From: Allobrachymonas chironomi DSM 19884
GTDB taxonomy: Bacteria > Pseudomonadota > Gammaproteobacteria > Burkholderiales > Burkholderiaceae_C
Assembly: GCF_000374625.1 (NCBI RefSeq)
Contig: NZ_KB894770.1
Coordinates: 62,001 to 126,000, forward strand
Length of the DNA stretch: 64,000 nucleotides
Direction: 5' to 3'
Below are positions 57,514 through 59,267 of this stretch, piece after piece. The notes under the pieces were generated by a model that was not told where the DNA came from, did no database searches, and saw only the letters and a list, made by a program, of their open reading frames with translations. Positions within the stretch are counted from its first letter, which is position 1; each line of letters starts with the position of its first letter. The position numbers were made by a program, and so were the translations under genes.

Positions 57514-58875
57514 TTACACCTGTTGCAAGGCCCGCGCACGTACCAACAGAAAGGCTGCCACAGCCTGCAGTTCCTGCCGCTGCAGCAACAGGTCGTCCTG
57601 CTCATCCTGCTGCCGTTGCAGTTGCTGTTCCAGTGCCTGCGCCAGCTGACGCACGCGCTTGCGTACCTGGTTGGGTGACAGCTGACAATCCAGCGCAAAG
57701 CGCTCCCAGGCGAGCGATCCCGGCGGCGTCGCCAACTGATGCCGGCCGATCGACAGGGCCATGCGCTGCGCCCCGGGCTGGCAGCGCAGGTCGTGCAGCG
57801 GTGCCAGTGTCACGCCCTCCTCCGCGCTGCGGGGCCGGCGCAGCAGCAGCTGGTGCGGTGCCATATCGGCCATGCCGAAAAGCACGCCGGTGATGATGGC
57901 GTCCAGCAATTGCAGCATCAGGCTGGCGTGCGGCCTAACCTGCGCGCGCAGCAGGGCAAACGCCGCCGGCCAGCCCGCCGCCTGGCGTGACTGGATCGCG
58001 CCGGGAGCCAGACCCAGTGCCTGGCCCAGGGTCTCGGCCGGCCAGCGCTGGCAGCGTTGTTCATCATCGTAATAGCGGTCCGGGCGCAGTTGCAGCAGCG
58101 CCGTCATTTCGCCGGGTGGCATCGCCTGCATCGGCATGACGGGAACCCCCATTGCCTGCAACCGCTGCTGCAGCCAGAGACGCTGGAACAGTTCGGCATC
58201 GTGGCCAGGCGCTGCCAGCCAGAGCAGATGGCTGCTGCAGGGCTGTACGTCCTGGCCGTCCTGCTGTTGCCAGAGCGGTACCAGCGTGTGCTCGCCCGGC
58301 CAACCGCCGCGCGCAGTCTGGGGCCGTGCCAGCAGCAGGCTGATGCAGGCACTGCGCTCGACCTGACCTGCCGGCAAGGCCGGCAGATCCTGCCTGATGT
58401 CGGGATCATCAAAAAAGGACAGCTGCTGTGCCTCGGCCTGCAGCTGCTCCAGCGTCAGTGTGCCGGCCTTCCAGCGACGGCGATTGGGCGGCAGCGCGTG
58501 CAGCGTGACGGCTCCCAGCAGATCGGTGCCGAGGGCATCGAGCAGTGCGATATCGTCATCCAGGCCGGTCTGCAGCCGCTGGGCCAGGGCCTCGCGCATG
58601 TCGCCGGCTGGCAGCAGGCTGCCAAAAAACGCCAGGCTGGGCCAGTGGCCAAAGGCTTCGGCCTGCAAGGGCAGGTGCAGTGACAGCGGCACGGCATCGG
58701 GCCTGGCCAGCCAGTCGCGGTGGTAGCGGAACTGCAGCCAGCCCTGGGACGGCATGGCCAGGTGTGAACGGCCACGGTTGCCGGCTGCGGTACCGCTGCT
58801 GCCCAGGGTGCCGACGACCTGGCCCAGCAGGCGCACCTGCAGCCGGGTATGGGCGCGATCGGGGGCGGCGTTCAT
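57514..58875 (-). CDS. Divergent HipA-like protein (probable degenerate kinase)
   Basis: 453 residues, HipA length and overall order: an N-terminal HipA_N-like region (LLGQVVGTLG), a middle with WPGEHTLVPLWQ, and QRWPAETLGQALGLAPGAI, which fits the RWHxEDxxQxLGL stretch. Key kinase residues are changed: the nucleotide lysine in THILK is replaced (SHLLWL), and the NxDxHxKN catalytic loop reads MADMAPHQ, keeping Asp337 but losing His, Lys and Asn. The Asp of the YDV/HDL element is kept. HipA phosphorylates Glu-tRNA synthetase in persistence; here activity is doubtful. Overlaps the hipB-like gene by 4 bp. Confidence 0.72.
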   Translation of the reverse strand: MNAAPDRAHTRLQVRLLGQVVGTLGSSGTAAGNRGRSHLAMPSQGWLQFRYHRDWLARPDAVPLSLHLPLQAEAFGHWPSLAFFGSLLPAGDMREALAQRLQTGLDDDIALLDALGTDLLGAVTLHALPPNRRRWKAGTLTLEQLQAEAQQLSFFDDPDIRQDLPALPAGQVERSACISLLLARPQTARGGWPGEHTLVPLWQQQDGQDVQPCSSHLLWLAAPGHDAELFQRLWLQQRLQAMGVPVMPMQAMPPGEMTALLQLRPDRYYDDEQRCQRWPAETLGQALGLAPGAIQSRQAAGWPAAFALLRAQVRPHASLMLQLLDAIITGVLFGMADMAPHQLLLRRPRSAEEGVTLAPLHDLRCQPGAQRMALSIGRHQLATPPGSLAWERFALDCQLSPNQVRKRVRQLAQALEQQLQRQQDEQDDLLLQRQELQAVAAFLLVRARALQQV

Positions 58876-59117
58876 GGCTGCTCCTGCAGGTCGGCAGCCA
58901 GTGGAACGCCAGCCAGCTGCAGTTGTGCGCCCAGCGCCTGCAATACCTGCAGCACTTTTTCCAGGCGCACGGTGCGCTTGCCGGCTTCCAGCTCGACGAC
59001 AAAACGCAGGCCGACACCGGCTGCCAGTGCCAGTTCGGCCTGGGTCAGACCCTGTTGCTTGCGTGTGCGGTAGACCGCCAGTCCCAGATCCTGGGGGGTA
59101 TCGACAGGTTGCAGCAT
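58872..59117 (-). CDS. HipB-like helix-turn-helix antitoxin/regulator
   Basis: 81 residues with an Xre-type helix-turn-helix (GLTQAELALAAGVGLRFVVE, residues ~23-42). Like HipB it precedes the hipA-type gene and overlaps it (ATGA). Start at ATG 59117; an upstream in-frame ATG at 59147 would add ten residues. Would repress its own promoter if it acts as HipB. Confidence 0.78.
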   Translation of the reverse strand: MLQPVDTPQDLGLAVYRTRKQQGLTQAELALAAGVGLRFVVELEAGKRTVRLEKVLQVLQALGAQLQLAGVPLAADLQEQP

Positions 59118-59120
59118 GGA

Positions 59121-59150
59121 GAATATTCCCGCTCGGGCATGTTTCACATG
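59121..59150 (-). promoter_or_regulatory. Candidate HipB operator region
   Basis: Two palindromes just upstream of the hipB-like start: GAATATTC (59121-59128) and CATGT-TTC-ACATG (59138-59150). Position next to an autoregulatory HTH gene suggests operators; they do not match the E. coli HipB site TATCC-N8-GGATA. Confidence 0.3.
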
Positions 59151-59267
59151 TCTGCGATTCTATGCGAGATGCTCGCCAAGGGTTTACACGCAGCAGCCGT
59201 GCCTGCGACAAGGCCTATACTCACGCGATCGAACGATCGTGCTTTTTATTTTTTCAACGGCTGACCG

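Follow-up and report, generated by a model that had tools for sequence, protein, structure and literature searches.

The window analysed here, a 64,000-nucleotide stretch of the Allobrachymonas chironomi DSM 19884 genome, carries a HipBA-like gene pair whose HipA-like protein is, on the evidence of its residues, very probably a pseudokinase. What is new is that the same catalytic losses recur in four Brachymonas-group genomes at one core-gene locus. Conservation of the disarmed pair, with its HipB partner and a likely DNA site, in four bacteria suggests that it serves as a gene regulator and not as a toxin. The explanation we favor, and consider somewhat more probable than all others together, is that of a disarmed HipBA that was passed on vertically and persists as a complex which binds DNA and regulates itself.

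The gene pair and its substituted kinase site

The features discussed below are as follows.

57514-58875, minus strand: HipA-like protein of 453 aa, a very probable pseudokinase (open reading frame, Pfam and NCBIfam matches, fold, motif losses, Lys count)
58872-59117, minus strand: HipB-like, Xre-type HTH protein of 81 aa (open reading frame, Pfam HTH_3, TIGR03070, orthologue identity)
59126-59137, minus strand: likely HipB operator CCCGAGCGGGAA, just upstream of the hipB start and invariant in four loci (alignment)
58219-58221, minus strand: codon of Trp219, which replaces the nucleotide-binding Lys; SSHLLWL, compared with SSHILKP in intact relatives (motif alignment, codon read)
57847-57873, minus strand: former catalytic loop, residues 335-343, MADMAPHQL compared with NHDAHAKNF in intact relatives; Asp337 kept, His, Lys and Asn lost (alignment)

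The coordinates, strand, 453 codons and intact HTH partner given in the original prediction all agree with the open reading frames and with Pfam and NCBIfam. hipB lies upstream of hipA, and the two frames share 4 bases (58872-58875). The hipB start is the ATG at 59117, with an in-frame GTG at 59147 also possible. Both Pfam domains of the HipA family are found above their curated cut-offs, namely Couple_hipA (1.2e-16; 61.4 bits, cut-off 22.5) at about residues 38-125 and HipA_C (8.6e-10; 39.1 bits, cut-off 30.5), and the protein also matches TIGR03071 of NCBIfam (72.8, cut-off 27.8). The kinase-fold C-terminal part spans roughly residues 194-453, and no HTH family of Pfam matches the N-terminus. 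The HipB-like protein matches HTH_3 (7e-10, Pfam) and TIGR03070, the Y4mF-type antitoxin family of NCBIfam (80.2 bits, cut-off 71.65), so that a HipB-type HTH antitoxin gene adjoins hipA upstream as in a HipBA module. The neighboring genes are of core type and encode DNA polymerase III delta', thymidylate kinase, YceG (MltG), a GCV_T-domain protein that we take to be ygfZ-like, a DUF4442 protein, DsrE, and Tex.

Structure prediction, which had been proposed as a check, yielded a HipA fold. The AlphaFold2 model, built from an input alignment of 25 rows, has a mean pLDDT of 75.5 and a pTM of 0.81, with values below 50 for 67 residues in total (1-5, 30-40, 130-168, 203-205, and 207-212). Its best Foldseek match is the HipBA entry 2wiu (2wiu_A, 6.2e-20), and it superimposes on E. 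coli HipA (3dnt_A) with a Z of 34.7 and an rmsd of 3.2 over 384 residues, the first and last aligned being 10 and 453. The protein is thus predicted to adopt the HipA fold over its whole length.

Catalytic residues were compared in an alignment of 74 tree-set rows, three of them from the Brachymonas group, and the two pieces of the interrupted G006 protein as separate rows, which leaves 71 other HipA homologues. These 71 are not a random sample of HipA proteins, because they were gathered by similarity searches begun with the window's HipA-like family and limited to frames of at least 340 residues. The Lys of HILK is K in 71/71 of them and W219 in the window protein, as had been noted beforehand. 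The D, H, K, and N of the DxHxKN loop are likewise invariant in all 71; the window protein reads D337, A, H, and Q, bearing out the claim that the His, Lys, and Asn are replaced and the Asp337 equivalent is kept. The Mg-site Asp (D in 71/71) is retained as D362 and is present in all four pseudokinases. In the Gly loop, the G and K that are invariant in the 71 read L and Q, which fits the reported lack of a clear GAQ-type P-loop, although placement of the loop is uncertain because the stretch aligns poorly and model confidence there is low. Overlooked earlier was the Glu of the NE motif, which by our reading would be the alpha-C Glu; it is E in 71/71 others and Arg in the window protein. The G004 and G002 proteins have W for the Lys of HILK, L or T, S, H, and R in the DxHxKN loop, D at the Mg site, R in the NE motif, and H and E in the Gly loop. 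Also overlooked was that Asp337 itself is replaced in two of three orthologues, by Leu in one and by Thr in the other. Measured against the Hip kinase motifs of Gerdes and colleagues, the window protein has lost the Gly loop and the catalytic motif and has kept the Mg-site Asp362.

A Lys at a shifted position, named at the outset as a finding that would speak against a dead kinase, was looked for and excluded as a rescue of the window protein, in which Lys occurs at positions 136 and 406 only. From these losses we infer that phosphotransfer has been lost entirely. The original prediction had also entertained a kinase that uses another residue; this is unlikely because of the near absence of Lys and the loss of the catalytic Asp in two orthologues. 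Another reading is that the protein is a transferase with some other chemistry, for example the transfer of nucleotides known from other enzymes with a pseudokinase fold. SelO and SidJ are examples of kinase folds put to new use, and this precedent, together with the presence of both Asp337 and Asp362 in the window protein and G006, speaks for it. Against it, there is no Lys at or near the HILK and catalytic-loop positions, and Asp337 is Leu or Thr in two more distant orthologues that are under similar purifying selection. Such an activity therefore seems very improbable.

Relatives, descent and selection

The pair is present in four of nine genomes of the genus that were examined (G000-G008): the window genome (G000), G006, G004, and G002. 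HipA identity to the window protein is 85% and 83% for the two contig pieces of G006, 48% for G004, and 46% for G002; the corresponding values for HipB are 96%, 76%, and 81%. The orthologue search, also proposed as a check, showed the same changes to be conserved, catalytic residues being lost in all four Brachymonas-group loci and kept in the 71 others. In G006, hipA is split over two contig ends, and each piece (303 and 192 aa) was read separately. About 41 residues are common to the two pieces, which points to an assembly break and not to a split gene.

All four genomes have hipBA flanked by ygfZ on one side and DsrE/Tex on the other, although in G006 the locus is spread over two contig ends; the DUF4442 gene is absent from the locus in G002. 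The other five genomes of the genus are 62-86% complete. hipBA was not found beside ygfZ in the fetched stretches of the four of these with a ygfZ neighborhood, and this neighborhood was not found in G001. A quickly built tree of 74 proteins groups the three full-length pseudokinase rows in one clade (SH-aLRT 100) on a long stem of 2.3, with a single change of state for catalytic loss. The tree program flagged the window row as long-branched and all three pseudokinase rows as odd in composition, and their exact place in the tree is unsure for these reasons.

No member outside the Brachymonas group was found in samples of 399 family genomes, where the next best match (G359, 164 bits) has intact motifs, or of 369 class genomes, which gave two further matches with intact motifs; a further scan of genome contigs gave two loci and no outside member. 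A mobile origin of the HipA-like protein was considered and rejected: phage records gave no match at E 1e-5, and the four matching plasmid records cover only 33-37% of it at 30-32% identity. Among viral contigs, 29 loci carry HipA relatives, the best at 32% identity, and a script found a DxHxKN-type loop in 29/29.

Selection was estimated as dN/dS (Nei-Gojobori, own script) within two pairs of genomes. For hipA, the values are 0.150 (302 codons) and 0.158 (192 codons) between the window and G006 and 0.146 between G004 and G002, the last including some leader codons, as do the other G004-G002 values, since frames outside the window genome were taken from stop to stop. The two values obtained for other genes are 0.037 and 0.101 for hipB, 0.142 and 0.180 for ygfZ, 0.134 and 0.114 for mltG, 0.060 and 0.038 for tex, and 0.162 and 0.073 for DsrE; DUF4442 gave 0.080. 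hipA is under purifying selection, with a dN/dS of about 0.15 that lies inside the range of its neighbors, and hipB is kept still better. Values for hipA across the two pairs (0.394 and 0.491) are not relied on because dS exceeds 1.

These data bear on the idea that hipA is a decaying pseudogene carried behind a useful hipB. HipA does diverge faster than HipB (46-48% compared with 76-81% identity), and its ex-catalytic regions are loosened. However, none of the four genomes has a stop codon inside the frame (read in G006 as pieces of 303 and 192 aa), the gene as a whole has a dN/dS of about 0.15, and residues 367-420 are more conserved than in equally diverged pairs of other HipAs. The pseudogene reading was rejected on the open frames and dN/dS; it is strongly disfavored and hardly credible. 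The earlier argument against a neutral pseudogene is thereby strengthened, since the same losses are conserved in four genomes at such a dN/dS, as befits a pseudokinase.

Where conservation lies within the protein was examined at 43-55% overall identity by setting the window-G004 and window-G002 pairs (n=2) beside 376 pairs of other HipAs, which have sequences in common and so are not independent. Identity in the catalytic and Mg loops is 0.41 and 0.39 in the pseudokinase pairs, compared with a mean of 0.66 in other HipAs (5th percentile 0.56), and in the Gly-loop region 0.31 and 0.27 compared with 0.48 (5th percentile 0.40). By contrast, the N-terminal domain stands at 0.64 and 0.63 against 0.54 in others, at about the 95th percentile (0.64), and residues 367-420 at 0.57 and 0.59 against 0.38, above the 95th percentile (0.49). 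At matched divergence, conservation thus no longer centers on the catalytic loops but on the N-terminal domain and residues 367-420.

Two further alternatives were considered. In the first, the protein would be a ligand-sensing pseudokinase whose remodelled pocket binds a nucleotide or metabolite and so switches HipAB on or off its operator. The Mg-site Asp is retained in all four proteins, conservation of residues 214-300 is close to that in other HipAs (0.56 compared with a mean of 0.59), and the predicted fold is complete. This is nevertheless unlikely, as the elements that hold ATP-Mg (Gly-rich loop, Lys, and Asn) have disappeared and conservation has dropped exactly in the Gly-loop and catalytic-loop regions.

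In the second, the dead HipA and HipB would act as an antidote or decoy against other Hip kinases, whether the cell's own HipH-like protein or those borne by mobile elements, by analogy with HipS, an N-terminal subdomain that stands alone and neutralizes HipT. The well-kept N-terminal subdomain (0.63-0.64) would suit such a role, and other HipA-like genes exist in G000, G002, G004, G005, and G008, with a DxHxKN- or DxHxGN-type loop in those of G000, G005, and G008. These proteins match the window protein weakly, though, and their HipB-like partners are 29-36% identical to the window HipB, so that cross-neutralization is not expected; in addition, the hipBA locus sits among core genes. An antidote function is accordingly judged quite unlikely.

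The putative operator and the search for further targets

Promoters of intact relatives contain the full palindrome TTCCCGNNCGGGAA, which in several loci is repeated about 50 bases apart. Within 150 bases upstream of hipB, CCCGNNCGGG is found in 4/4 pseudokinase loci and in 16/21 other loci whose HipB is of the same kind, the latter carrying one to three copies each; the remaining five of the 21 are without the palindrome. With 200 dinucleotide shuffles, the mean number of loci with CCCGNNCGGG was 0 for the pseudokinase set and 0.1 for the others. Each of the four pseudokinase loci has one CCCGAGCGGGAA, invariant amid diverged upstream DNA. This sequence, by its presence and position, is likely the operator palindrome of a HipBA module. 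Its left arm is without the TT of TTCCCG, and the pseudokinase operator may for that reason be weaker. Conservation of CGGGAA may partly reflect a ribosome-binding site, since the palindrome sits where one would be. A scan found no sigma-70 sites. A separate palindrome, CGATCGAACGATCG, lies at 59226-59239 between hipB and the divergent DUF4442 gene and is terminator-like on the plus strand (pattern scan); it is partly kept in G006 and G004 and was not seen in G002, which lacks DUF4442 there.

Exact copies of CCCGAGCGGGAA, the pseudokinase site included, number 1 in G000, 1 in G006, 4 in G004, and 3 in G002, compared with 5, 3, 6, and 5 for a backward control. At one mismatch or fewer there are 13 in G000 and 14 in G006, against 32 and 22 in the control. 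Among the matches listed, TTCCCGAWCGGGAA-like sites with at most two mismatches number 50, 88, 85, and 59 in G000, G002, G004, and G006, and their backward controls 66, 81, 88, and 52. Genome-wide, and among the matches listed, there is no clear excess of operator-like sites over controls, and a regulon is therefore not supported.

Five palindromic near-matches and one looser site were inspected in G000. One of these is intergenic, upstream of ppsA, with a counterpart in G006. This site, TTCCCGATCGGG (G000:C1:137656 and G006:C23:6292), touches the likely -35 box (by eye) and lies inside a long identical block common to G000 and G006; G002 and G004 do not have it. Among 26 stretches upstream of ppsA, of which the one from G001 was set aside, G000 and G006 have the site, G013 has a different palindrome elsewhere, and the rest have none. 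The ppsA promoter is a weak lead to a target, being a single site out of many that could have turned up. A bolder reading is that the toxin-antitoxin module was converted into a dedicated two-protein transcription factor, in which the ex-toxin would be an obligate signal-sensing pseudokinase subunit and which would have come to control one or more metabolic genes, perhaps that for PEP synthase; this is conceivable but doubtful.

Proposed role and comparison with known Hip systems

According to a review (PMC3920265), HipA of E. coli acts with HipB as a co-repressor. HipB there has HipA on either side; the N-terminal domain of HipA contacts one HipB subunit, the C-terminal domain mainly the other, and HipA makes further contacts to the DNA backbone. 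By the explanation we favor, a chromosomal HipBA pair was disarmed a single time, in the common ancestor of the four Brachymonas-group species, and would have been retained for its DNA-binding half. HipB dimers would bind the single palindromic operator directly before hipB. The HipA-like protein, with a HipA fold and without kinase chemistry, would use its N-terminal subdomain and its C-terminal helices to bind HipB, acting as a structural co-repressor. We infer that it still binds HipB and that the complex binds the palindrome and represses. The parts kept are those that a DNA-binding, co-repressor role needs and the parts lost are those for ATP and phosphotransfer, which argues for a disarmed HipBA kept as a DNA-binding complex. 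Of the three options originally offered, a regulator best fits the kept HipB and operator.

Some observations count against this explanation. Autoregulation alone is an odd reason to keep a gene, and the pseudokinase loci have one operator copy compared with up to three elsewhere. Moreover, Lys379 and Arg382 of E. coli HipA, which touch DNA, fall on Leu395 and Gln398 of the window protein by our own reading of the alignment.

The pair can be viewed as a separation of function that arose in nature: the protein has lost its kinase residues, yet it is still under selection and still accompanied by its partner and the likely DNA site. One can thus test whether toxin-antitoxin pairs on chromosomes can be retained for DNA-binding regulation alone and whether the co-repressor role of HipA can stand without the kinase. 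In the literature searched, judged mostly by title, no natural kinase-dead HipBA pair is described, and the pseudokinases named in the accessible part of PMC9758233 are Legionella families and not HipBA pairs. According to the portion of PMC8262856 consulted, Gerdes et al. (2021) required all four kinase motifs for inclusion in their main HipA phylogeny; disarmed HipAs are missing from it because intact motifs were the inclusion criterion.

Among known systems, HipH (YjjJ) shares the HipA_C kinase fold. In the consulted portion of PMC8262856 it carries an N-terminal HTH of its own along with the kinase motifs and lacks a neighboring antitoxin gene, whereas the HTH of the window pair is a separate upstream gene. 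The sole other HipA_C match in the window genome is a HipH-like protein (G000:C9:91879-92433) that has a stretch resembling an HTH (by eye) at its N-terminus and a loop reading GNTDMHTGN. HipBST offers a HipS-like N-terminal subdomain and a HipT-like kinase fold, which in the window are one chain; HipT lacks N-terminal subdomain 1, and here Couple_hipA is fused. HipT keeps four kinase motifs, as far as the same portion of PMC8262856 goes, and the window protein does not. E. coli K-12 HipBA resembles the pair in predicted fold, as the superposition indicates, but its HipA is an active Ser/Thr kinase and its operator consensus is TATCCN8GGATA (PMC3920265, available text), compared with CCCGAGCGGG here. 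Closest are the HipBA type II modules of the same family and order with a TIGR03070 HipB and a SLAGAQDK/SSHILK/GNHDAHAKN HipA, which share gene order, Couple_hipA and HipA_C, HipB family, and CCCGNNCGGG. Unlike these intact modules, the window pair is without the Gly loop, the Lys, the NE-motif Glu, and the His, Lys, and Asn, and it has a single operator copy in place of up to three and a longer stretch before SSH.
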